Shown here piece by piece: positions 27-51,740 of a stretch of DNA of 54,144 nt. Origin of the DNA: a virus. Numbering within the stretch: position 1 is the first letter of the stretch; each line of letters opens with the position of its first letter. The DNA lies in IMG/VR virus record IMGVR_UViG_3300036851_000065, positions 1 to 54,144 of that record. The stretch is one strand, 5' to 3'. The position numbers and the translations under genes were made by a program. The notes below the pieces were generated by a model. The model was given only the letters and a program-made list of their open reading frames with translations, made no database searches and was not told the DNA's origin.

Positions 27-101
27 GCTATAGTCATATAGGGGTTATTATACCGGCTTGCCATGTCGGATACGCGGGTTCGAATCCCGCCTGTAGCACC
101 A
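27..101 (+). tRNA. tRNA-Gly (GCC)
   Basis: All four arms fold. The 7-bp acceptor stem pairs GCTATAG with CTGTAGC (one G-T), the T arm is GCGGG/CCCGC around TTCGAAT, and the anticodon loop TTGCCAT reads GCC. Discriminator A98 and CCA (99-101) are encoded. It is the first gene of the tRNA array in this window. Confidence 0.93.
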
Positions 102-141
102 AACTTGACAAACTGTACTATTACGGAGTATAGTTTACAGT

Positions 142-220
142 GGGCCTGTAACTCAGTCTGGTTTAGAGTGCCGTCCTTTTAAGTCGGAAGTCGTGGGTTC
201 GACTCCCACCGGGCTCACCA
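142..220 (+). tRNA. tRNA-Lys (TTT)
   Basis: The acceptor GGGCCTG pairs with CGGGCTC, with wobble pairs. The T arm is GTGGG/CCCAC around TTCGACT. The anticodon loop CTTTTAA gives TTT. The anticodon stem has one T-T mismatch. CCA is encoded at 218-220. The next gene's ribosome binding site begins about 10 bases downstream. Confidence 0.9.
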
Positions 221-238
221 AATTACATAGGAGAACAA

Positions 239-892
239 ATGGTAAAGAAAACTGATAATGATATTTTAATTAATATTTTGCTGGATCGTTCAGGCTCAAT
301 GGGCGGCTATGAAAAAGATGTTATCGGGCATTTCAACGCATATATAGATGAACAAAAGGAACTACCCGGCAAGGCTACAGTATCCCTTGTCTTATTTGAT
401 GACAGGTATGAGCAGGTTTATCTTGGCAAGGATATTGCTGAGGTTCCAGCACTTACTAAGGATACATATTATGTACGAGGTAGTACCGCTTATTTAGATG
501 CATTGGGACGACTAGTTAAGTCAGTAGATGCTCTTACAAATAAGCCTAAGAAGGTTGTATTTGTAATCAATACTGATGGCTATGAGAACGCTAGTCGAGA
601 ATTTAATAGAACACAGATCAAAGAAATAATTACTGAGAGAACTAATAATCATGATTGGCAGTTCGTCTTTATCGGCGCTGGCATAGATGCATTTGAGTCT
701 GTTAAAGACCTAGGGTTTAATTTCCTTTCCGTCCACGCATCACCATCGAATGCTAATGGCGGTGTAGAAGATTCTTACAATAATCTAAGTAGATCAACTA
801 CGAATTATAGATCGGGCGTAACTGCTACAATGGATTTTACTAATCCTGATGATGACGAGGATAAGACAAAGAAAGTAACAACGGGCCGGTAA
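239..892 (+). CDS. von Willebrand factor A-domain protein
   Basis: A 217-residue protein starting at ATG 239 behind AGGAG. It shows a nearly complete metal-ion-dependent adhesion site: DRSGS (residues 16-20), the Thr of GSTAY (about 83) and the Asp of NTDG (about 113), spaced as in vWA folds. There is no signal peptide or membrane segment, so it is probably cytoplasmic. vWA domains bind protein partners through a divalent metal; the partner here cannot be inferred. The gene sits between two tRNA-Lys genes. Its TAA stop (890-892) lies inside the downstream tRNA-Lys (positions 8-10 of that tRNA), so the two genes overlap by 10 bases. The domain call is firm; the role is unknown. Confidence 0.88.
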   Translation: MVKKTDNDILINILLDRSGSMGGYEKDVIGHFNAYIDEQKELPGKATVSLVLFDDRYEQVYLGKDIAEVPALTKDTYYVRGSTAYLDALGRLVKSVDALTNKPKKVVFVINTDGYENASREFNRTQIKEIITERTNNHDWQFVFIGAGIDAFESVKDLGFNFLSVHASPSNANGGVEDSYNNLSRSTTNYRSGVTATMDFTNPDDDEDKTKKVTTGR

Positions 893-956
893 CTCAGAGG
901 CAGAGTGCCTGACTCTTAATCAGGTGGTCGGGATTTCGAAATTCCCTCGGCTCACC
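883..956 (+). tRNA. tRNA-Lys (CTT)
   Basis: The acceptor GGGCCGG pairs with TCGGCTC (wobbles). The anticodon stem CCTGA/TCAGG encloses CTCTTAA, anticodon CTT. The T loop is TTCGAAA with a T-T at the top of the T stem. CCA is encoded at 954-956. The first 10 bases are also the last codons and stop of the vWA gene. Confidence 0.87.
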
Positions 957-987
957 AAACATATTTAAAGCGTGTAAGGTGATTTAA

Positions 988-1104
988 ATGTCATACGAAC
1001 ATGAATGTGAATGCCTAGTTGAAGGGTGCAAATGCTTAAAATTAATCGTTTGTACTCCGGGCTCAGATTGGTGTGATGATTGTGATGAAGGAAATCACAC
1101 ATAG
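988..1104 (+). CDS. Small cysteine-rich protein, possible zinc knuckle
   Basis: A 38-residue ORF from ATG 988 preceded by AAGGTGAT. It contains six Cys, in CEC, CKC and CDDC arrangements, so a small zinc-binding or disulfide-linked peptide is plausible. It is acidic overall. Its TAG stop (1102-1104) overlaps the first two bases of the following tRNA-Trp, the same end-to-end packing seen for other genes in the array. No family was recognised, and it is too short for strong statistical support. Confidence 0.5.
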   Translation: MSYEHECECLVEGCKCLKLIVCTPGSDWCDDCDEGNHT

Positions 1105-1177
1105 GAACGTCGTATAGTGGTTATTATTTCCGTCTCCAAAACGGACGACGAGGGTTCGACTCCCTCCGGTCCTGCCA
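1103..1177 (+). tRNA. tRNA-Trp (CCA)
   Basis: The acceptor AGGAACG pairs with CGGTCCT with one A-G mismatch. The anticodon stem TCCGT/ACGGA encloses CTCCAAA, anticodon CCA. The T arm is GAGGG/CCCTC. Discriminator G is the usual tRNA-Trp identity base, and CCA is encoded. Confidence 0.92.
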
Positions 1178-1197
1178 AAATTTAGGGGTTGGTCTAT

Positions 1198-2706
1198 GTG
1201 AAAAAGAGAATGAGTTTGCTTTTAGCAATTTTGTTAGCAGCAACCTCATTACTATCACCAGCAATTATCAGCGGTTCTATAGATACAAAAGAACCTGTAT
1301 ATGAAGTACAGGAAGCTGTTCCTGATCCATTAACTTGTGTGGGATACCCTGAACCTAGAGTTTGGATAGAGGAACAAGGTTGGTGGCAAGATTCTACAGG
1401 AGAAGCATTTCCCGGTAGACATGTTCACGTAGGAACATGTTGGCCTGTAGGAGCCATAACTGGAACATTTAGTACAACATTAAGGGTTATTCTGCACGCT
1501 CAACCAAGCGGTGCAAAAATAACTGGCGCAAGAATAAGTGAATGTGGAACATCGGGAAGTTGTTCAGGTAATCCGTGGCCTAATAGCGGCTCTCCACTTC
1601 CAAAATGGAATCCAATTGATTCAAATGGTGACATGGTACAGATGGTACCAATGTCATTCAATACTACGGGTTGGTCAACAGGCGGGCATGAAATGCGTTT
1701 GGCTGTTTTTGTTGATCAGCCAAGTGGAGCAAAACAGTTTGTATCAGGCGGTTGGCCTTTATTCGTAGGACAAGTAATACCGTTTAGTAGGGGCTATGTA
1801 GAGTCTCGTGGCTGGTACACAAAATTTGAATATATTAATGCTAGGTATCATTCAGGATTAGCCGCTCTTTTAAATCCGGTCCCTGAAACGTGGCGACCTG
1901 TTGTTGAATGCGCTAGACCGTCTGGACATGCTGCTATTACCTCGGCTTCGGCTCATGTTGATCCTAACATGCATGAGGGTAATAAAGGAATAATTTATCC
2001 TTTTGCAACAAGTGGAAAAGTAACCTTATCAATAAATACTACTGGATTGGCACAGGGGATTCATAGACTAGTTATAGTATGTGGAGCTAAGGCAAATCTA
2101 TCTTCAATAGCAAATGGCACAGATAGCGGGGTAATGAATATACCATTTAAAGTAGGAGGAACGCCAACACCTACTCCGACACCAACAATAACTCCTATTC
2201 CTACCGTAAATCCAACACCTACTCCCTCCGTTATACCAACTCCTACACCAACAGGAACGCCGGGAACAGGAAATACATTTATAGCTCTTGAAGATGCTAA
2301 AGTTAATGAACAATTTCCAGAATCAAATTATGGAAATATCACAGACCTTAGAGTATTAAATACTACACAGGATTATCAATCATATCTGAAATTCAATTCT
2401 ACCGTAGAGGAAGTTAGTTCAGCTAAAGTTAGATTATTTGTAACAGATTCTTCACCGTATAATACGCAGATATTTGTTACCTCAATGTTTAGCGAGTCTA
2501 CGCTAAGATGGTCTAATAAGCCACCACTAGGAGTTGGGCTAGGCACGGCAATTGGGTCAGTTGCAGGACAATGGATTGAGTATGATGTGAGTAGTGTTGT
2601 AAATGGCGCTGGAACATATTACTTTGTAGTTGCTGGTGGAGGTTCAAATAGTTTGTTCTTTAGTAGCTCAGAAGGTGCTAATCAACCACAGTTGGTTGTT
2701 AACTAA
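1198..2706 (+). CDS. Secreted protein with PT linker and DNRLRE-type C-terminal domain
   Basis: The GTG at 1198 is preferred because AGGGG (1184-1188) lies 9 bases upstream; an in-frame TTG at 1189 would abut it. The product is 502 residues. The N-terminus is a Sec signal peptide: MKKRM, a hydrophobic run of about 15 residues, then a small-residue region. Residues about 30-320 look like two related beta-rich segments with several Cys. A Pro-Thr repeat linker covers about 322-358. The last 145 residues resemble the DNRLRE (CBM96-like) fold, including the 'YGN..DLRV', 'SYLKF' and 'LRWSNKP' signatures. It is probably exported from the infected cell and may bind polysaccharide. Stop TAA 2704-2706 abuts tRNA-Asp with no gap. 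Domain call moderate, function inferred. Confidence 0.8.
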   Translation: MKKRMSLLLAILLAATSLLSPAIISGSIDTKEPVYEVQEAVPDPLTCVGYPEPRVWIEEQGWWQDSTGEAFPGRHVHVGTCWPVGAITGTFSTTLRVILHAQPSGAKITGARISECGTSGSCSGNPWPNSGSPLPKWNPIDSNGDMVQMVPMSFNTTGWSTGGHEMRLAVFVDQPSGAKQFVSGGWPLFVGQVIPFSRGYVESRGWYTKFEYINARYHSGLAALLNPVPETWRPVVECARPSGHAAITSASAHVDPNMHEGNKGIIYPFATSGKVTLSINTTGLAQGIHRLVIVCGAKANLSSIANGTDSGVMNIPFKVGGTPTPTPTPTITPIPTVNPTPTPSVIPTPTPTGTPGTGNTFIALEDAKVNEQFPESNYGNITDLRVLNTTQDYQSYLKFNSTVEEVSSAKVRLFVTDSSPYNTQIFVTSMFSESTLRWSNKPPLGVGLGTAIGSVAGQWIEYDVSSVVNGAGTYYFVVAGGGSNSLFFSSSEGANQPQLVVN

Positions 2707-2781
2707 CCCCCGTTCGTATAATGGATATTATGCCGGTCTGTCGAACCGAAGAAAGGAGTTCAATTCTCCTACGGGGGGCCA
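2707..2781 (+). tRNA. tRNA-Asp (GTC)
   Basis: A perfect 7-bp acceptor, CCCCCGT/ACGGGGG, with discriminator G and encoded CCA. The anticodon loop CTGTCGA gives GTC. The T arm is AGGAG/CTCCT around TTCAATT. It starts at the base after the stop codon of the secreted-protein gene. Confidence 0.93.
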
Positions 2782-2790
2782 AATCTAAAA

Positions 2791-2866
2791 GTCGGAATGG
2801 TGTAGTTGGTCTGCACGTATGCGTGAAGCCCATAAGGTGTCAGTTCGATCCTGACTTCCGGCACCA
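2791..2866 (+). tRNA. tRNA-Phe (GAA)
   Basis: The acceptor GTCGGAA pairs with TTCCGGC, and the T arm is GTCAG/CTGAC around TTCGATC. The anticodon loop reads GTGAAGC, giving GAA with U33. The anticodon stem has a C-C mismatch at its loop end, so the isotype is slightly less certain than the gene itself. CCA is encoded. Confidence 0.85.
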
Positions 2867-2881
2867 AATTAGGTGATGTAA

Positions 2882-3076
2882 TTGGCAAACTACAAAAGGA
2901 AGAAACCAAAAGAATATAGAATTTCTAGCTGTGGTAGAAAATCCTGTAAACAAGATGTTTACAAGGGTCGCGGAAATATTCGTGAACGCTATCTAAGTAA
3001 TTTTTGGAAAGATACAAAACTAGGTGACTATGCTCACCCTTGGAGATATAGAAGTGTCATAGAGATATCGTATTGA
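2882..3076 (+). CDS. Hypothetical basic protein
   Basis: A 64-residue, Lys/Arg/Tyr-rich product from TTG 2882, with AGGTGATG (2871-2878) just upstream. It has a CGRKSC pair of Cys near residues 18-23 and no membrane segment. It is not recognised. The strong positive charge would suit RNA or DNA binding. It follows tRNA-Phe, and its last codons overlap the upstream open frame of the next ORF in a different register. Confidence 0.55.
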   Translation: MANYKRKKPKEYRISSCGRKSCKQDVYKGRGNIRERYLSNFWKDTKLGDYAHPWRYRSVIEISY

Positions 3077-3092
3077 TGTTAACGGCTATAGA

Positions 3093-3281
3093 GTGAGACA
3101 ATGCAAAGAGGGTATTGAGACTCCTTGTATTCGTATCACAGAAGGTAAGGATATTTGGTATGCTAAATCTGTCCGTATTAACGGACCTTCAACGATTGCT
3201 CAGACGAATTTTGATCCCGAAGAACCTAACAAACCCTTTATTTGGATAGAGACTGATGGGCCTATTGATTGGATGAAGTAA
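3093..3281 (+). CDS. Hypothetical protein, start uncertain
   Basis: 62 residues from GTG 3093; no family recognised. The start is doubtful because GTG 3093 has no clear ribosome binding site. Convincing protein-like sequence (RYRIDVNGYRV) continues in frame upstream to a TAG at 3060-3062. Beyond that TAG the same frame opens again to ATG 3030, which has AGGTG a few bases ahead. The real gene may therefore begin at 3030 and contain an amber codon, or start at a rare ATT (3072). See the finding on this region. Confidence 0.5.
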   Translation: MRQCKEGIETPCIRITEGKDIWYAKSVRINGPSTIAQTNFDPEEPNKPFIWIETDGPIDWMK

Positions 3282-3287
3282 ACGAAT

Positions 3288-3539
3288 ATGATCGAAAAAA
3301 TTGTAACAGAGTCCGGGGCTAATTACACTATAGACTATGATAAAAAAACGTGGTTTAGATTGCCTAGTGAAAGATCAGCCGAGATACGCAGTGATTCAGG
3401 CGAATTCCTAAAGATAGATTTTCCGGTGGTTCAGGGGGACTCTAGACAGAGTATTAGACTATTTTGTCCCCCCTTTAATCCACCATTTTATAGGATTATT
3501 CTATCAACAGAGATAGTTAGTAGAGAAGTATTGAGTTAA
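3288..3539 (+). CDS. Hypothetical protein
   Basis: 83 residues from ATG 3288, six bases after the preceding stop. The sequence alternates hydrophobic and polar residues with several Pro and Gly near the end (CPPFNPPFY), suggesting a small beta-rich protein. No catalytic motif, signal peptide or transmembrane helix is seen. It lies just upstream of the suppressor tRNA gene. Unrecognised. Confidence 0.6.
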   Translation: MIEKIVTESGANYTIDYDKKTWFRLPSERSAEIRSDSGEFLKIDFPVVQGDSRQSIRLFCPPFNPPFYRIILSTEIVSREVLS

Positions 3540-3547
3540 AGGCTTTA

Positions 3548-3623
3548 GGGCCGTTAGCTCAATGGTTAGAGCAGTTGTTTCTAAAACAATCGGTTATCGG
3601 TTCGAATCCGATACGGCCCTCCA
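3548..3623 (+). tRNA. Amber suppressor tRNA (anticodon CTA)
   Basis: A canonical fold with no mismatch in any arm apart from a G-T pair. The acceptor is GGGCCGT/ACGGCCC, the D arm GCTC/GAGC, the anticodon stem GTTGT/ACAAT, and the T arm ATCGG/CCGAT around TTCGAAT. The seven-base anticodon loop TTCTAAA (3579-3585) puts CTA at 3581-3583, which decodes UAG. Alternative registers of the stem do not pair. Discriminator is T3620 and CCA is encoded. The amino acid it carries cannot be read from the sequence: the U73 and G1-C72 differ from the U1-A72/G73 of glutamine acceptors. Confidence 0.92.
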
Positions 3624-3643
3624 AATAATAAGAAGATGAGAGA

Positions 3644-3850
3644 ATGAATAATGGAATGCCTTATGCGGTAATGTGTCCAGAAGGTGATGGGCACTGTTGG
3701 ATATTTGACGGCTACCTATCTGATAACAGAATGGGGGCTGAAAGATGGCTCAAATGGCATTTGTCAGATAAAAGAGAAGCCTGTTCCAGAGAATTAAAAG
3801 ACCATTACGTACTCTTAGTACTTGATCCATTTGAAATGCGTGGGCTATAA
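3644..3850 (+). CDS. Hypothetical protein
   Basis: 68 residues from ATG 3644, preceded by a purine-rich GATGAGAG. It is rich in Trp, His and Cys (GDGHCWIFDGY), with no recognised family. The stop overlaps the next start as TAATG (3848-3852), so the two are translationally coupled. It follows the suppressor tRNA. Confidence 0.6.
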   Translation: MNNGMPYAVMCPEGDGHCWIFDGYLSDNRMGAERWLKWHLSDKREACSRELKDHYVLLVLDPFEMRGL

Positions 3851-4275
3851 TGAATATTGACTTAGAAGATATCTTATTAGATAAACACCCGATTAGCTAT
3901 GTACGTGAAGGTAGTTGCTGTTACGGTGAAGATGTGGTTTGTCGCTGTGGGTGGGAGGGCAGCCCCTCTGATTATAGTACTCATCTTGTAGTTACTCTTG
4001 GATTTACTAGAACCGTTGTTGATAAGTGGAAGCAAAGATTAGGTCAATATGCTATGATAGACGATAGAGGCGAAGAAAACTTCTTAAATACCTATCGCGG
4101 AGAAGAAGATAAAACAACTCTTGGTTTATCTAAGAAGGAGTGGGAAGCTCTAGATAAGACTGAAAGAAAAGAAAGTAAAAAAGCTGGTAAGTTAGTACGC
4201 ACTGGTCCCTTTGCAGATGATCCTAGTAAGAAAAATAAGTGGGATTATATGTTTGAGGAACCACCTGAATTTTAA
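3850..4275 (+). CDS. Hypothetical protein with Cys cluster
   Basis: 141 residues starting at ATG 3850, which overlaps the previous stop. It contains CCYGE and CRCGW (residues about 23-37), a plausible single zinc site. The second half is charged and Lys/Glu rich (KKEWEALDKTERKESKKA), probably helical. No enzyme motif is visible. It ends six bases before tRNA-Cys. Confidence 0.62.
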   Translation: MNIDLEDILLDKHPISYVREGSCCYGEDVVCRCGWEGSPSDYSTHLVVTLGFTRTVVDKWKQRLGQYAMIDDRGEENFLNTYRGEEDKTTLGLSKKEWEALDKTERKESKKAGKLVRTGPFADDPSKKNKWDYMFEEPPEF

Positions 4276-4280
4276 AATAT

Positions 4281-4358
4281 GGGGCGGTACCCGAGTATAA
4301 ATCAGGGACTTACTTGCAAGGTAAGAATAGGGGAGTGAAAATCTCTCCCGCCTCTCCC
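4281..4358 (+). tRNA. tRNA-Cys (GCA), atypical T loop and 3' end
   Basis: The acceptor GGGGCGG pairs with CCGCCTC. The anticodon stem CTTAC/GTAAG is perfect and the loop TTGCAAG reads GCA. Discriminator T4355 fits tRNA-Cys. Two oddities stand out: the T loop is TGAAAAT instead of TTCAAAT, and CCC (4356-4358) follows the discriminator instead of CCA. The terminal CCA would have to be added or repaired after transcription. Confidence 0.82.
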
Positions 4359-4363
4359 AATTT

Positions 4364-4439
4364 CAGCGGATAGACTAATTGGCTAAGTCATTGGTTTGTG
4401 ACACCATCAATGTCGGTTCGATCCCGGCTCCGCTGACCA
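4364..4439 (+). tRNA. tRNA-His (GTG)
   Basis: A perfect acceptor, CAGCGGA/TCCGCTG, and a T arm GTCGG/CCGGC. The anticodon loop TTGTGAC reads GTG, with a T-T at the base of the anticodon stem. CCA is encoded. The discriminator is A, whereas bacterial tRNA-His normally has C73 paired with an extra G at -1. Charging identity is therefore a little uncertain. Confidence 0.85.
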
Positions 4440-4441
4440 TT

Positions 4442-4517
4442 CCTCTCGTAGTATAAAGGTATAATACAATTGCCTGATAAGCAGTAAATGGCAGTTCGAT
4501 TCTGCCCGAGAGGACCA
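4442..4517 (+). tRNA. tRNA-Ile (GAT)
   Basis: A perfect acceptor, CCTCTCG/CGAGAGG, and a T arm GGCAG/CTGCC. The anticodon stem ATTGC/GCAGT encloses CTGATAA, giving GAT. CCA is encoded. Only two bases separate it from tRNA-His. Confidence 0.92.
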
Positions 4518-4537
4518 ATTAAAATAGGAGGGGAAAA

Positions 4538-4645
4538 ATGCCTACAGATTGGAAGTCTTTACTTATCTTTATCATAGCAGTAGTTGTGGTAGTGTTTGCA
4601 ACCATTAAGATTTGGCCTGTTGTTATTGGTGGGCCACTAATTTAA
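4538..4645 (+). CDS. Single-pass membrane mini-protein
   Basis: A 35-residue ORF from ATG 4538 with a very strong AGGAGGGG site six bases upstream. After a short polar N-terminus (MPTDWKS) comes one hydrophobic segment (about residues 8-23, LLIFIIAVVVVVFAT), then a short tail. It is probably an inner-membrane peptide. The strong ribosome binding site and clean topology support it being real despite its size. Function unknown. Confidence 0.6.
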   Translation: MPTDWKSLLIFIIAVVVVVFATIKIWPVVIGGPLI

Positions 4646-4655
4646 TCATTCCCCT

Positions 4656-5045
4656 GTGGATAGAAGAAGTTTGAATCGAAAAAAGAAAAACGAGATACAA
4701 CGAAACTGGTCTAATAATCGTAGGCAACAAGCCTTAGATATATTGGGCAACAAATGCGTTGTGTGTGGTTCTACTGAAAATCTAGAGTTTGATCATATAG
4801 ACCCCAAAAAGAAGTCCTTTGCGATTGGTGCTTGGGGATCACATTCTTGGGAAGAAATATTAAAAGAGTTAACTAAATGCCAGATACTTTGTAAGATAGA
4901 CCACAAAAAGAAAACAGAACCTAAACATGGCACATATAGTTGCTATAAGCATAGAAAATGTAAGTGTATTGCGTGTATAAACGCCAATACAGAATACATG
5001 AGAACGTACCGATTGGCTCGTAGACAAACTGGTAAAGTCGTCTGA
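4656..5045 (+). CDS. HNH endonuclease, 3' end overlapping tRNA-Gln
   Basis: 129 residues from GTG 4656. HNH features: CVVC (34-37), FDHIDP (45-50) and C-x3-C...H (75-83), which form the zinc-braced beta-beta-alpha metal nuclease. The C-terminal part carries KHGTY...CKCIAC (90-107), a Cys-rich module also present in the second HNH protein at 5984. Such proteins are often free-standing homing endonucleases of phages. The reading frame runs 32 bases into tRNA-Gln (5014-5045), so the last ten residues are encoded by the tRNA acceptor and D arm. This fits insertion beside, or selfish association with, the tRNA gene. Its ribosome binding site is weak. Confidence 0.85.
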   Translation: MDRRSLNRKKKNEIQRNWSNNRRQQALDILGNKCVVCGSTENLEFDHIDPKKKSFAIGAWGSHSWEEILKELTKCQILCKIDHKKKTEPKHGTYSCYKHRKCKCIACINANTEYMRTYRLARRQTGKVV

Positions 5046-5090
5046 TTCTGGATCAGGAGTTTGTAGGTTCGACTCCTACCGAGCCAGCCA
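5014..5090 (+). tRNA. tRNA-Gln (CTG)
   Basis: The acceptor TGGCTCG/CGAGCCA with discriminator G has the U1-A72, G73 pattern of tRNA-Gln. The anticodon stem TCTGA/TCAGG encloses TTCTGGA, giving CTG. The T arm is GTAGG/CCTAC. CCA is encoded. Its first 32 bases also encode the end of the HNH gene. Confidence 0.9.
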
Positions 5091-5113
5091 ACTTAAAAAA
5101 GGTAGTGGAGTAA

Positions 5114-5371
5114 TTGGATAGAAGAACCAAAAGACAAAAATTACAAGACATGGCTAATCAAACCGAGTCTCCACACGAAGCTGATATAGCACGAAGAATG
5201 TTAAAAGACCTACCACCAGAAGAGAATTTTTCCGGTCCCCTGTACTATAATGGTATTAAGGTAGGAGAGGCGTTCAACGTTCGGTTCACATTGAACTTTG
5301 ATCCCGGTGTTGGCGTCTATGACTTTGTGAAACAAGAATGGAACTGGACCAAACCTTCGGGAACTAAATAA
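5114..5371 (+). CDS. Hypothetical protein, DUF2786-like N-terminus
   Basis: 85 residues from TTG 5114 with GGTAGTGGAG upstream. The first 35 residues (RQKLQDMANQ, then SPHEADIARRML) resemble helical segments seen in many phage proteins that count small repeats of aging or division domains, but the match is loose. The C-terminal half is beta-rich and aromatic. The TAA stop (5369-5371) is followed directly by tRNA-Arg with no gap. Confidence 0.6.
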   Translation: MDRRTKRQKLQDMANQTESPHEADIARRMLKDLPPEENFSGPLYYNGIKVGEAFNVRFTLNFDPGVGVYDFVKQEWNWTKPSGTK

Positions 5372-5448
5372 CCGCCTGTAGCTCAATAGGATAGAGTATG
5401 AGGTTTCGACCCTCAGGGCTGCACGTTCGAATCGTGTCAGGCGGGCCA
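5372..5448 (+). tRNA. tRNA-Arg (TCG)
   Basis: A perfect acceptor, CCGCCTG/CAGGCGG. The anticodon stem TGAGG/CCTCA encloses TTTCGAC, giving TCG. The T arm is GCACG/CGTGT around TTCGAAT. CCA is encoded. It begins at the base after the preceding gene's stop codon. Confidence 0.92.
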
Positions 5449-5477
5449 AATTAATAAAACCCCCTGTCTCCCTGAAA

Positions 5478-5517
5478 CCTGCTATATGTAGGTGTAAACT
5501 CGGATAAGTTCAGCAGG
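5478..5517 (+). other. Imperfect stem-loop in tRNA-array spacer
   Basis: CCTGCT (5478-5483) pairs with AGCAGG (5512-5517), with an inner AACT/AGTT hairpin (5497-5510). It has no U tract, so it is not an intrinsic terminator, and it lacks a T arm, so it is not a tRNA. It could be a processing signal or a decayed RNA gene. Confidence 0.35.
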
Positions 5518-5562
5518 GCGGGCTAAATAAAGGGAGAAGAATAAGCTCAGGAGTTGATATGA

Positions 5563-5685
5563 ATGCCTCTCAAATCAAAGGCACAAAGAGCGTGGATGCA
5601 CATAAATAAACCCGAAATGGCAAAACGTTGGGAGAAAGAAACTCCTAAAGGAAAAAGACTTCCAAACAAAGTTAAGAAGAAATAG
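5563..5685 (+). CDS. Conserved-type small basic phage protein
   Basis: 40 residues from ATG 5563, preceded by CAGGAGTTGAT. The sequence has the pattern common in small phage proteins: SKAQRAWM near the start, PEMAKRWEKETP in the middle and a very basic KRLP...KVKKK end. These proteins are of unknown function and often occur near structural genes. It ends in TAG. Although short, the recognisable pattern supports it. Confidence 0.65.
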   Translation: MPLKSKAQRAWMHINKPEMAKRWEKETPKGKRLPNKVKKK

Positions 5686-5716
5686 AACGTACTTTGCCCC
5701 ATTTTCGTTGATTTTG

Positions 5717-5727
5717 GGTGTTATAAT
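5717..5727 (+). promoter_or_regulatory. Possible extended -10 promoter element
   Basis: GGGTGTTATAAT contains TG-N-TATAAT (TATAAT at 5722-5727), a consensus extended -10 element, 14 bases before tRNA-Tyr. No good -35 was found at 17-18 bases. It could supply transcription to the distal tRNA genes. Weak single-site evidence. Confidence 0.35.
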
Positions 5728-5740
5728 AATGAAATAGTCT

Positions 5741-5824
5741 GGACTAGTTGAACAGGTGGTGGGTTCGCTTGACTGTAGATCAGGTGCTTTGGCCATGGGG
5801 GTTCGATTCCCTTCTAGTCCACCA
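5741..5824 (+). tRNA. tRNA-Tyr (GTA), class II
   Basis: A perfect acceptor, GGACTAG/CTAGTCC. The anticodon stem CTTGA/TCAGG encloses CTGTAGA, giving GTA. A long variable arm precedes a T arm with TTCGATT, as expected for bacterial tRNA-Tyr. CCA is encoded. Confidence 0.92.
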
Positions 5825-5836
5825 ATTAAAAATAAA

Positions 5837-5881
5837 CGGGTCGCAGTATTGGTTCAATTGCTCTGTCAATTGTTCGGCCCG
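5837..5881 (+). other. tRNA-remnant-like folded element
   Basis: A 7-bp stem CGGGTCG/CGGCCCG (one T-G) closes an element containing a second stem, CAATTG/CAATTG around CTCTGT. At 45 bases it is too short for a normal tRNA and has no U tract. It sits between tRNA-Tyr and tRNA-Thr, so it may be a decayed tRNA or a spacer hairpin guiding processing. Confidence 0.35.
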
Positions 5882-5885
5882 ACAT

Positions 5886-5958
5886 GCCGATGTAGTATAA
5901 CGGTTTATTACCGCTGTTTTGTACTCAGCAGATGGGGGTTCGATTCCTCTCACCGGCT
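5886..5958 (+). tRNA. tRNA-Thr (TGT), no encoded CCA
   Basis: The acceptor GCCGATG pairs with CACCGGC with one A-C mismatch. The anticodon loop TTTGTAC in stem GCTGT/TCAGC gives TGT, with a T-T at the loop end. The T loop is TTCGATT. The discriminator T is followed by CAT, so CCA must be added. It is weaker than its neighbours but folds. Confidence 0.78.
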
Positions 5959-5983
5959 CATCAAAGATTCTAAGGAGTCAACG

Positions 5984-6442
5984 ATGGAAACATCAAACCA
6001 GAAAAAGAATAGACTACTAGGAGAGCCTTATGGAACAGCTACCTCTCGTTTGAGAAAAATGCTTTTGTTCGATATGGCGAGACGGCTTAAAGAGGATATT
6101 TGTTTTAGATGCGGTAAAATTATACAGACTCTAGAAGAATTCTCTATTGAGCATACAATCCCTTGGCAGGGAACAGAGAATCCAAAAGAAGCTTTCTTTG
6201 ATATAGAGAAGATTGCGTTCTCTCATTTAGTTTGTAACTCCGGTGCTGGTTTAAGATATACGGGAATAAAGGATACTACGCTCCACGGTAATTCTCGTTA
6301 TGATAAAGGGTGTAGATGTGCTGAATGTACTAAAGCACATTCTGAGAAAGGTAAGCGTTGGAAGCGTGAAGTCAATTATCGTAATATAAATAAATCTGTT
6401 TGTGATTTTCTTCCTCCGTGTCCTCATTCATATCATCATTAA
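5984..6442 (+). CDS. HNH endonuclease
   Basis: 152 residues. ATG 5984 is chosen because TAAGGAG lies seven bases upstream; the frame is open much further upstream, but that part crosses two tRNA genes. Zinc and HNH features: CFRC (40-43), IEHTIPW (55-61) and HLVCN (81-85). A C-terminal LHGN...CRCAEC module (100-115) is shared with the HNH protein at 4656. It probably makes a nick or double-strand break as a mobile-intron-style or free-standing homing nuclease. It lies between tRNA-Thr and the initiator-like tRNA. Confidence 0.85.
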   Translation: METSNQKKNRLLGEPYGTATSRLRKMLLFDMARRLKEDICFRCGKIIQTLEEFSIEHTIPWQGTENPKEAFFDIEKIAFSHLVCNSGAGLRYTGIKDTTLHGNSRYDKGCRCAECTKAHSEKGKRWKREVNYRNINKSVCDFLPPCPHSYHH

Positions 6443-6474
6443 TCACCGGCCCCATTAAAATTTATTCGTTGCGT

Positions 6475-6550
6475 TGCGGGGTGGAGCAGTGGTTAGCTTG
6501 CTAGTCTCATAAGCTAGAGGTCGTAGGTTCGAATCCTACCCCCGCTCCCA
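6475..6550 (+). tRNA. tRNA-Met (CAT), initiator-like
   Basis: The sequence strongly recalls bacterial tRNA-fMet: GCGGGGTGGAGCAG at the 5' side, AGGTCGT before the T arm and CCCCCGC at the 3' side. Position 1 (T6475) faces T6546, so 1-72 is unpaired, a hallmark of initiator tRNA, followed by six perfect acceptor pairs. The anticodon stem CTAGT/GCTAG encloses CTCATAA, giving CAT. It lacks the three consecutive G-C pairs typical of initiator anticodon stems. CCA is encoded. Confidence 0.88.
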
Positions 6551-6555
6551 ATTCT

Positions 6556-6627
6556 CGGTGGGTGATTTGGTAATCTAGTTAGTTTCATACGCTGGCTGAG
6601 AGAGTTCGATTCTCTCCCTACCGACCA
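6556..6627 (+). tRNA. tRNA with CAT anticodon (elongator Met or Ile2)
   Basis: The acceptor CGGTGGG/CCTACCG is fully paired. The anticodon stem TTAGT/GCTGG (wobbles) encloses TTCATAC, giving CAT. The T arm is GAGAG/CTCTC. CCA is encoded. A fully paired 1-72 sets it apart from the initiator-like gene just upstream. It could be elongator Met, or Ile if C34 is modified to lysidine. Confidence 0.88.
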
Positions 6628-16477: not shown

Positions 16478-16939
16478 ATGCCAATTAGCGCGGAAAGTTT
16501 AAAAGCAAAGATAGATGCTTTTAGAGAAGAGATAGGACGAAATATTACGTTCTATGTCTCTTCTTTAGAGCCTTGCACTTTGTGCTTACCGAGCGGGTAC
16601 TATGATGCAACTAATGATACGACTACTTACTTTACATGTCCTGTATGCGATGGACAGTATTATCTCCCCACTAAAACAGAGACAGAGGTATTAGCTAGGG
16701 TACACTGGGTTAGCGATCAAGCTGTTACTGCCACACCGGGAGGAAAATACTATGTAGGTGACTGTAACGTACATATTGATCCTACCTATAGAACCTTAGC
16801 CGAGTCTGCCCAAAGTAATACGGGTGGGGTAATAGTAGATGGACATGATATGCAAATTCAAAAGATTATACCTCAGGGTGCGCCCTCTATAAATAGGACT
16901 AGAGTAATTCTTACCAATAAGGGTAGTAGGCCATCCTAG
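16478..16939 (+). CDS. Putative neck or tail-completion protein with zinc site
   Basis: 153 residues from ATG 16478 with AAAGGAGCG upstream. CTLC (33-36) and CPVC (54-57) form a likely zinc site; the remainder is beta-rich (KYYVGDCNVHIDP). Similar zinc-containing proteins sit between connector and tail-terminator genes in many siphoviruses. It ends in TAG. Confidence 0.65.
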   Translation: MPISAESLKAKIDAFREEIGRNITFYVSSLEPCTLCLPSGYYDATNDTTTYFTCPVCDGQYYLPTKTETEVLARVHWVSDQAVTATPGGKYYVGDCNVHIDPTYRTLAESAQSNTGGVIVDGHDMQIQKIIPQGAPSINRTRVILTNKGSRPS

Positions 16940-16956: not shown

Positions 16957-17223
16957 ATGAACATAACACCTAACATTGTGGTTTGTCCAAAATGCGATGC
17001 TGAGTTTCAACATAATCGCGTTAATGGTATGGCTTTGTTGGAGCTAGCTAATGCTGTAGAAGCGAGAACACGGATGCACAGCCGTTTAACTCTTGATGCA
17101 TTAGAGAAAGAATTTGAAGGTAAAGAACTACCAAGGGCTGTAAAGAAAGCTGTTTTAGACGGCTATAATGATCTTGCTAGAAGCGTGTTGATAGTTCTAG
17201 GACTTGGTGGCGATGCTGAGTAA
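16957..17223 (+). CDS. Hypothetical protein
   Basis: 88 residues from ATG 16957 after GAAGGAGAAGG. One CPKC (10-13) near the start is followed by a helical, charged region and a hydrophobic C-terminus. No second CxxC is visible, so zinc binding would need dimerisation. It overlaps the next start by one base. Unrecognised neck-region protein. Confidence 0.65.
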   Translation: MNITPNIVVCPKCDAEFQHNRVNGMALLELANAVEARTRMHSRLTLDALEKEFEGKELPRAVKKAVLDGYNDLARSVLIVLGLGGDAE

Positions 17224-18113
17224 TGGTAACAGTACGAACAACGGTAGATTCGTCTGCTGTATATGCAATGGTACGTACCTTCGAAGAGGGACTATATAAT
17301 GCAGAATCTTTTGCAGCGCATGAAATAGAAAATCGAATTAGATTTACAGTATTTGATGAAGTTGTTCATAGGCTTGGGGCTCGCGCTGGTCAGGGATTTC
17401 CTAGTGTTTATAGGGATCACCTTGCTAACTTTATGAAGATCAATATAAATATAAATGTAGTTGCACAGGGCAACGGTTTCATGTCTGTCGAATATGATCT
17501 TGATGGATTAGGCGGTTATGGGGAATTGGAATTGGGAGCGCATCATCAAGCATTAGAGTATGAAGAGCCGGGTTCTTACGGTGTTACTAGAACGGGTAAG
17601 GCTAGATATAATCCACACCCCAATAAAGTACAGCTTCCTTATGCCGGTCAAGCTCTTATGAATGAAGCGGAGCGTAGACAAGAGTTTTGGGAAGAAGCTA
17701 TTGTCGGACAACAAGGATTCATTACTAACTTTAGACGTGGATCAGGCTACCTAGAAATCACCAATGCTCCTACATTTGAGGAAATAGCAGCAGCACGAGT
17801 ATTTGAAGCTTGGATACCCTCTGGTACTGCTCCTGAATGGTTATGGTTAGAGAACGGATTCAATGAGAGCGAGCCTAGAATTCCTCCACAAGATTTCTCT
17901 AGAACACTAAGAAATATATCGGCCTGTGTTGCTGAAAAAATATATGAGGGCGCGTTGATTGGTTTGATTAGAGTTGCTGAACGAGCGGGCGGCGCAATTG
18001 CTGTAGGTAGTACCGGACGACCGTTCTTTAAATCAAGTGGGCGCTTTGTTGAATATAGAGGCGAGATAGACGAGAGTACCACTGATACTAATGAGTGTCT
18101 AGGGAGGTTATAG
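17223..18113 (+). CDS. Putative minor tail or tail-completion protein
   Basis: 296 residues from ATG 17223. The N-terminal part resembles HK97 gp10-type minor tail proteins in its helical start and basic loop; the rest is mixed alpha/beta with no catalytic motif. Gene order (connector, zinc protein, this, terminator-like protein, major tail protein) fits a neck protein. It stops at TAG 18111-18113, overlapping the next gene's ribosome binding site. Confidence 0.62.
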   Translation: MVTVRTTVDSSAVYAMVRTFEEGLYNAESFAAHEIENRIRFTVFDEVVHRLGARAGQGFPSVYRDHLANFMKINININVVAQGNGFMSVEYDLDGLGGYGELELGAHHQALEYEEPGSYGVTRTGKARYNPHPNKVQLPYAGQALMNEAERRQEFWEEAIVGQQGFITNFRRGSGYLEITNAPTFEEIAAARVFEAWIPSGTAPEWLWLENGFNESEPRIPPQDFSRTLRNISACVAEKIYEGALIGLIRVAERAGGAIAVGSTGRPFFKSSGRFVEYRGEIDESTTDTNECLGRL

Positions 18114-19913: not shown

Positions 19914-19951
19914 AGGGAGTGGGGCTAAAGCCCTGCTCCCTTTATTTTTTT
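19914..19951 (+). terminator. Intrinsic terminator after major tail gene
   Basis: A 12-bp stem (AGGGAGTGGGGC with GCCCTGCTCCCT, two wobbles) and a TAAA loop, followed by TTATTTTTTT. Genes downstream continue in the same direction, so it is probably partial, or a new promoter follows. Confidence 0.88.
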
Positions 19952-19984
19952 ATACGTACTATAGGTAAGGAAAAGGAGAAGAAA

Positions 19985-20722
19985 ATGGGATTAAAGATAG
20001 CTGATCTACTAAAATATAGAACAAGTATAGTACTAACTAAGCAAAATGGCGAGTCTATACTTGATGATAAGGGTATACCTATTGTTGTGTATCTAAGAAT
20101 TATTGGTGACGATGATTTAGTAGCATCACATCGCATGGCTCGATTTGCTTCATCCGCCAAGAGAAGAGCTTTACAGGATAAAGACTCACTTGACTGGAAA
20201 GAAGCCACACAACCTATTATAGAGGGTTCTGCTGAAGAGCTACGAGTTTACATTAAGCAAGCTAAAACTAGCAATCTAACTGCGGAAGCAAGATCAAGTG
20301 TACCTCGTCCAGACCTTCCCGAATTAGAGGAATTTGCTGCTGATCCTGATGCTGCCTCATTATTTGAAAAGGAGCAGTTTGAGGAAGCTGTTGATAAAGT
20401 AGAGGCCGATTATCAAAAAGCTCTTGAAGAATATATTGATATAAGAACAAGAGTTATAAATGAAGATTTAGCTGCTATAGAAGACATAGAGAAGCTTAGA
20501 GAAATAGCATTAGATAATGTGTCCGTTCTTCTTTGTATAGGAGAATACTATGCCGAGTTATATGATCAACAAACATATAGAGCTTGTTACTTAGATAATA
20601 CTTATAGGGAGCGAGCTTTTGATTCTGTTGAGGAGTTTAAAAGTGCGGATAGTTTTATTAAAAATCAACTCATTGATAAATACTTGGCACTAGAAGCCGA
20701 TCCAGAACAAATAAAAAACTAG
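19985..20722 (+). CDS. Tail assembly chaperone (G-like)
   Basis: 245 residues. ATG 19985 follows AAGGAAAAGGAGAAG; an upstream in-frame start at 19919 lies in the terminator stem. The protein is acidic and helical (VEADYQKALEEYIDIRTR), as are G chaperones that coat the tape measure. Its last codons contain A AAA AAC followed at once by a TAG stop (20720-20722), so most ribosomes stop here and a fraction slip -1 into the next frame. Confidence 0.85.
   Translation: MGLKIADLLKYRTSIVLTKQNGESILDDKGIPIVVYLRIIGDDDLVASHRMARFASSAKRRALQDKDSLDWKEATQPIIEGSAEELRVYIKQAKTSNLTAEARSSVPRPDLPELEEFAADPDAASLFEKEQFEEAVDKVEADYQKALEEYIDIRTRVINEDLAAIEDIEKLREIALDNVSVLLCIGEYYAELYDQQTYRACYLDNTYRERAFDSVEEFKSADSFIKNQLIDKYLALEADPEQIKN
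20713..20719 (+). other. Programmed -1 frameshift site A AAA AAC
   Basis: The heptamer A AAA AAC is in register with the zero frame (AAA AAC after the first A) and is followed by TAG. A -1 slip opens a 97-codon frame ending at TAG 21010-21012, giving a GT fusion of about 342 residues. The heptamer is a classic efficient slippery site. Confidence 0.9.
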
Positions 20723-21012
20723 CAGAGGGTAACTCTTGGGCGGTCGCTCTTGAAATAGCTAAGACTACGGGAATGCCGTTAGCCGAAGGTATAGAAAATG
20801 CGGTGGATTTACCTCATACATTAACGCTCGCAATCACTTACAGAGCAAGACTTAATTCATTTTGGGAGCTACCAAAAGATAAGCAGCCACCCCGAAATCT
20901 TTGGGATAAACCTTGGAGACTTAGCCAATTTTTTGATGAGGTATTTGATTCGAAAGGCGGGGCTAAGAAACAAACAACCTATGTCGAATATGATATTGAG
21001 GACGTGGAATAG
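20719..21012 (+). CDS. T-like extension of tail chaperone (made by -1 frameshift)
   Basis: 97 codons in the -1 frame directly after the slippery site; the first ATG in this frame (20773) lacks a ribosome binding site. The T domain contains FWELPKDKQPPRNLWDKPW and ends YDIEDVE. In siphoviruses the GT protein binds the tail tube protein through T and the tape measure through G, and the G:GT ratio matters for assembly. The order G-T-tape measure is conserved here. Confidence 0.87.
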   Translation, partial: LAEGNSWAVALEIAKTTGMPLAEGIENAVDLPHTLTLAITYRARLNSFWELPKDKQPPRNLWDKPWRLSQFFDEVFDSKGGAKKQTTYVEYDIEDVE

Positions 21013-37839: not shown

Positions 37840-37853
37840 GGAAAGGAGATAAC

Positions 37854-38657: not shown

Positions 38658-39602
38658 ATGGCAATTTATCAAGAGCCTATAAAAGCAGATTTTTGGCAGC
38701 TTTATCGTGAGCCGGGAGGTAGTTATCTCGACCCCCTCGGACCTAAAAATTGCATGACACATACTGCTGCTCGTGCGGTAATGAGAAATTATGAGGGTAA
38801 AAGACCTACAGGAATTATGGGTGCTTGGCCCCCAACTGGGTATGTAATACGAAGATACACGGGTGATACTGTTGGTGGAGTAAATCATGGACAGGTTGCT
38901 AAAGTATTGTCTTCAAAATATAAGGTTTCTTTGGTTCTTAAATATGGATTTGACTTCGATGATATTGCAGACCTACTTGAAGAAACTCGTGGTGTTATGC
39001 TATCTTTATGGTATGAGCCTATTCTAGATTCTAGATTTAGAGGTTCATATACGTTCAACACTAACCACGAAATCTGGTTGAATGGAGTAGATAGAGACAG
39101 ACGTTTATTTACATATGTTATTGATCCTTTAGCAGACGGCAGAATGAGCGGGCTGTATAAAGGGCCGGGTAGTTATCCGTTTAGCTTGCTGCGTGAAGCA
39201 GCAGGAATGTTGAATGTATCTTCTACTGGATACAGAGCTTTGGGATTTGGTAAAGCTTACATAGCTTATACTAAAGCTACTGGTGATTTTGCTACTGTTC
39301 CTGCACCAACAGGAATAGATTTTGGAGGTACGCCAATGAATCAACTTGATGGACCGGCTGCTAAGGTATTATTAGCTGGACCTACAAGAAAAATGTTCTT
39401 GAAAAAAGGAACGCCTATTTACAAATGGGTATCAGCTAGAACTGCAAATGAGTTTGCAAGAAGTTCTAGGGATCAGTGGTTCGTAATGACAGGAATCCCC
39501 GGATCGGGTTGGAGAACTGTTGTAACAAGTAAGGTATACCCTGATGGAATAACAAGGATATTTGAAGCTTACGTACCTGTAGGCGCTGGACCAATAGTTT
39601 AG
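38658..39602 (+). CDS. C39-like Cys peptidase endolysin
   Basis: 314 residues, start directly after the previous stop with no gap. A papain-like triad is visible: Cys32 in PKNCMTHTAA, His137 in TNHEIWLNG and Asp156 in VIDPLAD. The C-terminal 100 residues (FLKKGTPIYKWVS...) resemble SH3-like wall-binding modules. It would cut peptide cross-links, complementing the upstream glycosidase. The stop is TAG. Confidence 0.82.
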   Translation: MAIYQEPIKADFWQLYREPGGSYLDPLGPKNCMTHTAARAVMRNYEGKRPTGIMGAWPPTGYVIRRYTGDTVGGVNHGQVAKVLSSKYKVSLVLKYGFDFDDIADLLEETRGVMLSLWYEPILDSRFRGSYTFNTNHEIWLNGVDRDRRLFTYVIDPLADGRMSGLYKGPGSYPFSLLREAAGMLNVSSTGYRALGFGKAYIAYTKATGDFATVPAPTGIDFGGTPMNQLDGPAAKVLLAGPTRKMFLKKGTPIYKWVSARTANEFARSSRDQWFVMTGIPGSGWRTVVTSKVYPDGITRIFEAYVPVGAGPIV

Positions 39603-42033: not shown

Positions 42034-42206
42034 AAACTTTAGTAGTTATCGGTTTAACAGTCCTCATGATTTTGTTTTTTTCAATGCTAGAAGAAGAGAG
42101 TTTTGCCAAAGATTGTCATGCTGTTGATGGTGTGGTAATTGGCTATGGAGACGCTCGACAATGTATTGCTCCTGACGGGAGAATCATTCCAATTCGGGGT
42201 AGATAA
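42030..42206 (+). CDS. Small membrane-anchored protein with two Cys
   Basis: 58 residues from ATG 42030 (ATGA overlap). A single hydrophobic segment (MKTLVVIGLTVLMILFFS) is followed by an exported-looking domain with KDCHAVDG and RQCIAPDG, two Cys that could form a disulfide. Stop overlaps the next start as TAATG. A small inner-membrane or periplasmic phage protein; function unknown. Confidence 0.65.
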   Translation: MKTLVVIGLTVLMILFFSMLEEESFAKDCHAVDGVVIGYGDARQCIAPDGRIIPIRGR

Positions 42207-42412
42207 TGTGTAGCACATGTCAAACAACACAAGGGCCATTTATTACTATAGCTCCTAATGTTAAAGTATGCGGTCCTATTCAATATGAAAAAGAAACAGG
42301 CAGAATACGTGGCCGCGTGTTGGAGTGTAACAACAGGCGGCGGGCTCTAGAAAATCTTTGGTACGGTAAACCAGATATATTACAGGAGCCTATAGTTACT
42401 AAACAGGAGTAG
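42206..42412 (+). CDS. Small Cys-containing protein upstream of helicase
   Basis: 68 residues from ATG 42206. CSTC (2-5), KVCGPIQY and LECNNRRRA suggest a small zinc-binding protein. It ends in TAG (42410-42412); the DnaB helicase TTG start lies three bases later in the same frame, so amber suppression would fuse the two. Confidence 0.65.
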   Translation: MCSTCQTTQGPFITIAPNVKVCGPIQYEKETGRIRGRVLECNNRRRALENLWYGKPDILQEPIVTKQE

Positions 42413-42415
42413 TAT

Positions 42416-43702
42416 TTGAATATCATACCTCACGCTCTAGATTTTGAGAAAGCTGTTATAGCTTCCGTTTTACAAGACCCATTACTACTTCCTAAGATTC
42501 AAAACTTGGTAGAACCAGATGATTTTTATGGTGCAAACCATAAAGAGATATGGAAGGTTATTAATTCTTTTGAATTAGGTCAGGTTGACTCTCTTGCTGT
42601 AGCTGATAAACTTCGAACAGATGTACAACCTTACTTCAAGGAAATTGTAGAAGATAGTGATAGAATTCTTCCTTCGATTTCCAATGCTTTGTTTTACGCC
42701 GAGGTTATACATCAGAAGAGTAAGCTGCGGGCTGGAATTGAGCTAGGACAGAATATAATTGCGGCCTGTTACCAAGAGACAGATGCAGAAGAGGCTATTC
42801 AACAACTTGAAGAAATGTTTGCGCATTTCTTACAGAAAAGAGTGCTTGAAAATAAGTCTGAATCTACACAGGAATCATTTAAGCAATTTCTAAAGACGCT
42901 TGGCACTCGTGAACCAGACGATCCTAACGCAATAAGAACTGGCTTTAGAGAATTAGATTTACTCCTTCAAAGACTAGAAGGATTAATAGTATTAGCTGCT
43001 CGTCCCTCTATGGGTAAGACAGCACTAGCTTTGAATATCATTGCCAATGTAGCTGAGAAGCACCCTGTTTTATTCTTTTCATTAGAGCAGAGTGAAACAC
43101 AGGTATTTGAACGGCTACTAGCTTCCGAGGCAGAGCTACCTCTAGAGGATATTAGACTTGGTGTTTATGACACTGAGTTATTAGAGTCTGCTGAGAAGCG
43201 TTTGGTTTATCTCATGGAGAATATCCATGTAGATCAGAATGCTAACGTTTCTGTCTCTTACGTTACTTCTGTGTCCCGACAAAAGAAATATGAGTGGGGC
43301 AAGATCGGTCTTATAGTCATTGACTATCTGCACATAATGAAATTAGGAGCTAATAAAAATACTACCGACTTATTAGAAGATGCAGTACGGGAACTTCGTG
43401 CTTTAGGTAAAGAGTTAGATTGTCCGATTCTTTTGCTTGCGCAGTTATCTCGTGGTGTTGAATCTAATGAGAGAAAGAAGAATCGGCGACCAGAATTATC
43501 TGATTTAAGAGGGTCGGGTGGTATTGAACAAAGCGCGGACTCCGTAGTATTTCTCTATCGAGAATCTTATTACGATCAAGCTGGACTTGCCCCTGATGTA
43601 GATTATACAGAGGTTATTGTACGTAAGAACAGAAACGGTAGGCAGGGCAATATTAATCTAAAATGGTACCCAAAAATTGTAGCATTTAAGGATGAACGAT
43701 GA
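42416..43702 (+). CDS. dnaB: DnaB-like replicative helicase
   Basis: 428 residues from TTG 42416, with CAGGAG seven bases upstream. The N-terminal DnaB-type domain (ALDFEKAVIASVLQDP) is followed by the RecA-like ATPase: Walker A ARPSMGKT (195-202), Walker B LIVIDYLHI (299-307) and an SDLRGSGGIEQSADSV motif. It unwinds DNA at the phage fork. No primase was identified in the window. Confidence 0.94.
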   Translation: MNIIPHALDFEKAVIASVLQDPLLLPKIQNLVEPDDFYGANHKEIWKVINSFELGQVDSLAVADKLRTDVQPYFKEIVEDSDRILPSISNALFYAEVIHQKSKLRAGIELGQNIIAACYQETDAEEAIQQLEEMFAHFLQKRVLENKSESTQESFKQFLKTLGTREPDDPNAIRTGFRELDLLLQRLEGLIVLAARPSMGKTALALNIIANVAEKHPVLFFSLEQSETQVFERLLASEAELPLEDIRLGVYDTELLESAEKRLVYLMENIHVDQNANVSVSYVTSVSRQKKYEWGKIGLIVIDYLHIMKLGANKNTTDLLEDAVRELRALGKELDCPILLLAQLSRGVESNERKKNRRPELSDLRGSGGIEQSADSVVFLYRESYYDQAGLAPDVDYTEVIVRKNRNGRQGNINLKWYPKIVAFKDER

Positions 43703-45779: not shown

Positions 45780-45940
45780 GCGCAGCCGTTGGTTATTGGA
45801 TCGCTATGATCCTAATTGGTTTTAATCTTGGTGTGATAGTTGCAAGTACAGCTAATATTTTTATCCTTGTTTCTTTAGTGCTTTCAACAGTAGTTGCAAT
45901 CTATTCTATACTGAATGGTTTTGAAGCGGAGGTAAGTTAG
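45776..45940 (+). CDS. Two-helix membrane mini-protein
   Basis: 54 residues from GTG 45776. Two hydrophobic segments (about 5-23 and 27-46, both Ile/Val/Leu rich) with a short loop. TAG stop, directly followed by GTG 45941 of the next gene, which has its own GGAGG upstream. Could be an antiholin-like or host-modifying membrane peptide; no family. Confidence 0.6.
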   Translation: MSAAVGYWIAMILIGFNLGVIVASTANIFILVSLVLSTVVAIYSILNGFEAEVS

Positions 45941-49425: not shown

Positions 49426-49966
49426 GATTGCTTTTGTAGGACTACATAATTCAGGTAAAACCTTTGCCGCTCATTATCTATATAAGCACCATAATTTTAA
49501 AACAGTAAAGATGATGGACGGTACAGCTAAGGTTGTTAAGTGGTTCTATAAGTATCGTTCTCATGAGAGGATTAAATGGGAACGTCGTGTTGAGTTCTAT
49601 GACGCTCTCTATACTCTTGATCCTGACATACACGTTGATTATTTACTCCGTCGATTGGACGGGGGCCAAGAAACTACTCGTGATGTAGTAGTAGATGATG
49701 TTAGATACGCTAATGAAGTTATCAAATTACATAAGGCTGGATTTATCATCGTTCGTATGACGATGGAAAATGAAAGACTTAAAAGGATCGTAACCAATAA
49801 GCATACGGGCAAGAATAGAGTTTCTCTCAACGAGCAGTTCAACAAGAAGAACAGCGTTTATCCTGTCGATTATAGCATTATTAATGTTACCACTGAGGGT
49901 TTATATAAGATGTTAGATAATCTTGTGGAAAAAGAGCGGGCTAAACGACAAATAGTTGACATTTAG
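49391..49966 (+). CDS. P-loop kinase, paralogue of dNMP kinase
   Basis: 191 residues from GTG 49391; GTG 49403 is an alternative start. P-loop GLHNSGKT (17-24) and VVDDVRYANEVIKLHKAGFIIVR share the plan of the 48481 protein. It has more basic residues and no clear base-recognition motif. It might be a second nucleotide kinase with different specificity. Stop TAG. Confidence 0.75.
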   Translation: MRNAVADSAAIRIAFVGLHNSGKTFAAHYLYKHHNFKTVKMMDGTAKVVKWFYKYRSHERIKWERRVEFYDALYTLDPDIHVDYLLRRLDGGQETTRDVVVDDVRYANEVIKLHKAGFIIVRMTMENERLKRIVTNKHTGKNRVSLNEQFNKKNSVYPVDYSIINVTTEGLYKMLDNLVEKERAKRQIVDI

Positions 49967-51483: not shown

Positions 51484-51564
51484 GTGAAATTATTGCACCG
51501 AAAGTTACCATATTTTTTATTACTGAGAAAAATATTTTTAAATAAAAGAAAGGGATTAAAATGA
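51484..51564 (+). CDS. Short basic peptide
   Basis: 26 residues from GTG 51484, immediately after a TAG stop. Basic and Leu-rich (LLHRKLPYFLLLRKIF). It overlaps the next start (ATGA). Weak ribosome binding site (AGGTAG), so translation may depend on coupling or amber read-through of the preceding ORF. Confidence 0.35.
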   Translation: MKLLHRKLPYFLLLRKIFLNKRKGLK

Positions 51565-51740
51565 GTGAAGTTTGTAGAGGTAGTCATATTGGACTATGGG
51601 TAGATAAAAATAAATCAAATCATTTTGAGGGGGAGTTAGCTCAATGTAGAAATGAAGCGGGCTCTGAACCCAAATGGCACAAAATTTCAGAATTAGTTTC
51701 ATTTAAATATTATACAGTCATTGAAAGTTTAGATTTATAG
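51561..51740 (+). CDS. Hypothetical protein
   Basis: 59 residues from ATG 51561 with AAAGAAAGGG upstream. Two Cys (5 and 29), otherwise polar. Ends in TAG, followed directly by TTG 51741 of the next gene. Unrecognised. Confidence 0.58.
   Translation: MSEVCRGSHIGLWVDKNKSNHFEGELAQCRNEAGSEPKWHKISELVSFKYYTVIESLDL

Follow-up and report, generated by a model that had tools for sequence, protein, structure and literature searches.

The stretch of viral DNA analyzed here (the window; a linear virus record of 54,144 bases) encodes a canonical tRNA with a CUA anticodon at 3548..3623 on the plus strand, and the phage to which it belongs uses TAG as an ordinary stop codon. We consider it reasonably probable that this tRNA, charged by the host, brings about partial amber suppression that the phage tolerates under the standard code, and that purifying selection keeps the gene in place. 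The tRNA has been conserved through compensated stem changes, CTA tRNAs appear repeatedly within the phage family, and the conserved genes of the family are not recoded.

ARAGORN called a tRNA spanning exactly 3548–3623, and both the sequence and ARAGORN anticodon position 34 place the CTA anticodon at 3581..3583 (plus strand). The gene encodes its own CCA and has U73. Its anticodon loop reads TTCTAAA, and none of the other registers checked yields a 5-bp stem with a 7-base loop. With 71.7 bits, this tRNA has the top Rfam score among the 14 Rfam tRNAs in the window, and it folds into a full cloverleaf (z = -3.8). These results uphold the description in the first-pass annotation of an unambiguous CTA anticodon in a well-folding tRNA. 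The isotype profile models tie, at 46.8 (R), 46.5 (I), 44.7 (V), and 41.9 (K) bits. ARAGORN's label for the gene, 'tRNA-Pyl', denotes a CTA anticodon and nothing more. True tRNA-Pyl is marked by a reduced D loop, a single linker base, and a 3-base variable loop. The window tRNA shares the CUA anticodon alone with tRNA-Pyl and, in contrast, has an ordinary cloverleaf with a normal D arm, two linker bases, and a 5-base variable loop; a tRNA-Pyl identity was rejected on these three features. As judged from its sequence, 3548–3623 should be a genuine phage amber-suppressor tRNA gene, and it is predicted to read UAG.

The gene is part of an array at the left end of the window, in which 15 tRNA genes called by ARAGORN are interleaved with small ORFs (27..6627, plus strand). 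Because relatives have Leu, Arg, Pro, and Gly tRNAs farther upstream, the array is probably truncated at the contig start. The upstream neighbor of the CTA tRNA is tRNA-Phe(gaa) at 2791..2866 and the downstream neighbor is tRNA-His(gtg) at 4364..4439, both called by ARAGORN on the plus strand. The array also contains a 505-aa protein with a CBM96 carbohydrate-binding module (window 1189–2706), for which no homologue was found among the eight relatives compared. Elsewhere the window encodes terminase, portal, glycosyltransferase, DnaB, and exonuclease. Cultured phages provide almost no matches to its structural and replication genes, the only one being a remote terminase (25%), and a search of bacterial contigs for a clue to the host found no relative of the phage. 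Metagenomic relatives were found by terminase at 37 loci. Several of these are whole or near-whole at about 105–120 kb, three having end overlaps of 123–127 bases, and one relative that itself carries a CTA tRNA (CTA+), G006, is complete (119,870 bp, 123-bp end overlap). Given that related genomes measure 105–120 kb, roughly half of the phage's own genome is probably represented by the window.

Comparison with relatives showed that the CTA tRNA is conserved at its locus. Two relatives, L260 and L002, carry a CTA tRNA at the orthologous spot, which is marked by the flanking tRNA-Phe and tRNA-His genes; among the three phages with this Phe-CTA-His arrangement, terminase is only ~72–74% identical to that of the window. 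The three CTA tRNAs have diverged strongly, yet 98.4% of their stem cells are paired. Nine of the 21 stem pairs have changed on both sides, compared with 3.1 in shuffles (0 of 500 shuffles reach 9), in a small sample of three sequences for which no slid version comes near. The CTA anticodon and U73 are constant across all three. Since nine compensating pair changes have occurred while CTA remained unchanged, we infer that the tRNA is maintained by purifying selection.

Outside this trio, the trait is scattered. The CTA tRNA of L264 is flanked by Phe and Lys tRNAs and has a different body, to which a Gly tRNA is nearest; that of L268/G006, with a third body, is flanked by Ile and Gln tRNAs. L004, which is close to the window, has a Phe tRNA followed by a His tRNA without a CTA tRNA between them. 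On the terminase tree the trait needs four changes, of which at least three are forced by well-supported branches, a count that does not by itself tell gains from losses. Because L264 and L268/G006 carry other bodies at other spots, the tree and the tRNA comparisons indicate that the CTA trait is one gained or lost several times in the family, and the differences in body and place favor separate gains. The L002 CTA tRNA (5769–5844) has much acceptor and T-arm sequence in common with a tRNA-Leu(tag) of L004 (912–989), a likeness that may point to recombination of tRNAs, or their recruitment, among family members. G006 also contains a tRNA-like gene with a TCA (opal) anticodon and no encoded CCA (contig positions 108688–108757; L289–L294); it could act as a UGA suppressor or simply be a tRNA in decay.

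Within the window, TAG behaves as a normal stop. The stops of the 70 listed ORFs are TAG in 13 cases, TAA in 47, and TGA in 10, and coding density does not gain from reassignment (0.915 under code 15 versus 0.913 under the standard code). The earlier statement that TAG ends many genes was thus borne out: the positions 16478, 17223, 36051, 38658, 42206, and 49391 cited for it are starts of TAG-ended ORFs. A further example, 45776, holds in part: a short ORF with its TAG stop at 45940 may begin there with GTG. That the tape measure gene lacks an in-frame TAG is true and uninformative, because every standard-code ORF lacks one. Gene 16478–16939, which ends in TAG at 16937..16939, is conserved in G001 and G002, where it ends in TAA. 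The orthologues of gene 19919–20722 (TAG at 20720..20722) in the same two genomes also end in TAG, and no CTA tRNA was found in either. From the ORF list, TAG likewise ends gene 17223–18113 (18111..18113), gene 38658–39602 (39600..39602), and the deoxynucleoside monophosphate kinase-like gene 49391–49966 (49964..49966), and the TAG at 21010..21012 is immediately followed by TAA; all of these stops are on the plus strand. A glucosaminidase-like, possibly lytic gene (37779–38657) and the virion genes of the window are intact.

The first-pass annotation had also raised the possibility of partial read-through at chosen sites, and this was not supported. The only long in-frame extension leads from the TAG of a 68-aa ORF (42206..42412, plus strand; ORF list) into dnaB (42416..43702, plus strand; phrog_19 and Pfam), whose TTG start directly follows AGGAG-TAG-TAT. 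In G001, G007, G008, and G011, dnaB begins after a Shine-Dalgarno sequence at the residue matching the window TTG. Because these starts match, the TAG at 42410 is flanked by the ribosome-binding site on one side and the TTG start on the other; the ORF and dnaB are two genes, and a TAG-split dnaB was rejected. A TAG also sits between the Shine-Dalgarno sequence and the dnaB start of G008. At 45938..45940 (plus strand), TAG separates a short membrane-protein-like ORF from a same-frame ORF (45941–46228), and at 51738..51740 (plus strand) it separates a 59-aa ORF from a same-frame HNH endonuclease-like ORF. Read-through fusion was rejected at both sites, each of which consists of a short ORF and a separate ORF, and no fused homologue was found among family members. 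In the HNH endonuclease-like region (51546–52151), matches in relatives are confined to the C-terminal part.

We then turned to TAG use across the related phages, a comparison that had been proposed earlier. Among ORFs of at least 100 aa, TAG accounts for 48 of 208 stops in CTA+ members (23.1%) versus 121 of 473 in members without the tRNA (CTA-; 25.6%; Fisher p = 0.50), and read-through extension lengths are alike in the two groups. TAG is therefore an ordinary stop in both, and the resemblance in extension lengths and stop choice also speaks against selected read-through sites. Core genes are no exception: terL ends in TAG in L260, L002, and L264, as does portal in L260 and L002. In L264 (G004), the frame beyond the terL TAG stays open for 571 codons, so that read-through would fuse terminase and portal; the CTA- genomes G001 and G005 have the same frame layout with TAA. 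When all family proteins were aligned to five CTA+ records, no conserved gene split by a lone TAG was found. By inspection, interrupted alignments fell in anti-sense, repetitive, or pre-start stretches, and TAG was no more frequent among them in CTA+ records (7 of 37) than in CTA- records (13 of 53). The complete genome G006 ends 39 of 169 ORFs in TAG (23%) and has 5 internal TAGs in 18,828 codons, resembling CTA- genomes.

Two further signals did not hold. The window seemed rich in close second stops after TAG, but TAG did not differ in this respect from TAA or from CTA- genomes, and the wider viral sample described below showed no difference in back-up stops. A base +4 bias, with fewer TAG-A in CTA+ members (p = 0.04), was not repeated in that sample. 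No RF-1 domain gene was present in eight family records, and a synthetase search limited to PF00152 found none. Overall, neither the window (about half of its genome) nor G006, standing in for a complete one, gives any sign of a changed UAG meaning. Recoding of the window or its CTA+ relatives was rejected given intact conserved genes, TAG stops, and no gain in density under code 15, and the earlier view that there is no wholesale code change holds for both the window and G006.

To place the family in context, we searched with a general tRNA pattern carrying CTA, which matched at least 119 viral stretches; ARAGORN confirms the CTA tRNA in 115 loci among the matches listed. Each locus comprises the region surrounding a tRNA rather than a whole genome. 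Among the matches listed, only 1 of the 107 long-enough loci is clearly recoded (L106), and internal TAGs in the others do not exceed those of 100 control loci, which were collected with a Phe-tRNA pattern. L106 has 32 internal TAGs in 736 codons and 32 tRNAs in 11.6 kb. TAG makes up 12.1% of stops in CTA loci and 17.3% in controls among the matches listed, and after adjustment for GC the difference has a logit of -0.26, with a bootstrap range (-0.55 to 0.05) that includes zero. TAG avoidance in CTA-tRNA loci is thus at most slight. A four-anticodon pattern (CTA, TTA, TCA, CCA), which may favor some tRNA bodies over others, gave 18 CTA, 3 TTA, and 1 TCA among 111 loci inspected; TTA tRNAs in newly fetched loci were not confirmed by ARAGORN. 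The case is accordingly less exceptional than it had appeared, as many phages combine a CTA tRNA with the standard code, and some had already been noted.

XacN1 encodes two CUA tRNAs under the standard code, and in-silico read-through of 18 of its amber stops revealed no target (PMC5852040). RsoM2USA has one CUA tRNA (PMC8504454), and Atu_ph07, with one UCA tRNA, poses the same puzzle for UGA (PMC6102473). Like these tRNA-rich phages, for which no recoded genes are reported, the window's phage combines a stop-reading tRNA, here CUA, with the standard code and no identifiable read-through target. It differs in coming from an uncultured family with smaller genomes, one in which covariation, repeated appearance, and TAG use with and without the tRNA can be tested. 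Code-15 phages (crAss-like, Lak, and others) also have amber suppressor tRNAs: Sup-CTA tRNAs occur in 375 of 715 predicted code-15 phages (PMC11210395), often with theta ribozymes (PMC10879173). Unlike them, the window has no genes with in-frame TAG, retains TAG as a stop, and has neither a release factor nor a theta ribozyme; no Rfam match to the latter reached the gathering threshold, and the CTA tRNA lies only 20 bases from the next ATG.

Several explanations can be considered for the presence of this tRNA. The CTA tRNA transcript would undergo processing together with the other tRNAs of the array, and a host aminoacyl-tRNA synthetase would charge it. The tRNA would then compete with release factor 1 at UAG, and a fraction of ribosomes would pass UAG codons in phage and host messages. 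Efficient suppression should produce clear TAG avoidance, and the weak or absent avoidance observed counts against it. Suppression in the cell would be partial. The phage would tolerate it because its own read-through tails are short or harmless. Phage genes would need no read-through, and any benefit would be independent of recoded phage genes. Alternatively, the CTA tRNA could be a passenger that arose by anticodon change or transfer in fast-turnover arrays and persists unused, as its scatter on the terminase tree, the resemblance of CTA bodies to different sense tRNAs in different members, and the unaffected TAG usage might suggest. This is unlikely: a function-free tRNA should decay or drift in its anticodon, whereas the compensating changes in three phages left CTA intact, and in the viral sample TTA and TCA are both much rarer than CTA.

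Counter-defense is a different kind of benefit. Were the tRNA to occupy the A site at UAG, it could shield messages from RelE-type mRNA interferases and the like, RelE having a preference for UAG in the A site; in a variant, it would make up for release factor or tRNA lost while infection proceeds. The amber-specific enrichment in the viral sample fits this proposal, and other phage tRNAs evade tRNA-cutting defenses (PMC10264068; PMC11555353). However, C1 mycobacteriophages reportedly avoid carrying genes for tRNAs that correspond to RelE targets, among which the cta stop is named (PMC10264068), and we regard the two versions jointly as very unlikely. We assign a similarly slim chance to a limited code switch, in which the tRNA is required by a handful of phage genes that contain in-frame TAG and may be lysis or late genes encoded in the missing half. 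The frequency of Sup-CTA tRNAs in code-15 phages and the fragmentary state of the window (54 kb of a probable 105–120 kb) are in its favor, but none of the conserved genes in G006, the complete CTA+ genome, is split by TAG, internal TAGs are few there, and the glucosaminidase-like and virion genes of the window are uninterrupted. Finally, the tRNA might disturb the host by lengthening UAG-terminated host proteins, which would require neither phage recoding nor phage TAG avoidance. Highly expressed bacterial genes are reported to make almost no use of UAG (PMC8954436), so the effect on the host may be small, and this idea seems highly improbable. Tolerated, partial suppression by a host-charged tRNA under the standard code remains our preferred reading.

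A phage CTA tRNA is often read as a mark of recoding. Since this phage and its relatives still stop at UAG, it is no such mark here, and that reading would be wrong in nearly all of the 107 loci among the matches listed. The puzzle of CTA tRNAs in standard-code phages was already known from XacN1 and RsoM2USA; what is new is better comparative evidence. Compensating stem changes and repeated appearances suggest that the tRNA is in use, which sharpens the XacN1 puzzle. A wider reading, which we consider less likely than not, is that phages with the standard code have gained tRNAs that read amber time and again and actively retain them for some end unrelated to recoding, which might be to shield UAG-stalled messages from host defense or to alter UAG-terminated host proteins. 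The role of the tRNA can be addressed in the family described here, which supplies CTA+ genomes, one of them complete, together with CTA- genomes to pair with them.
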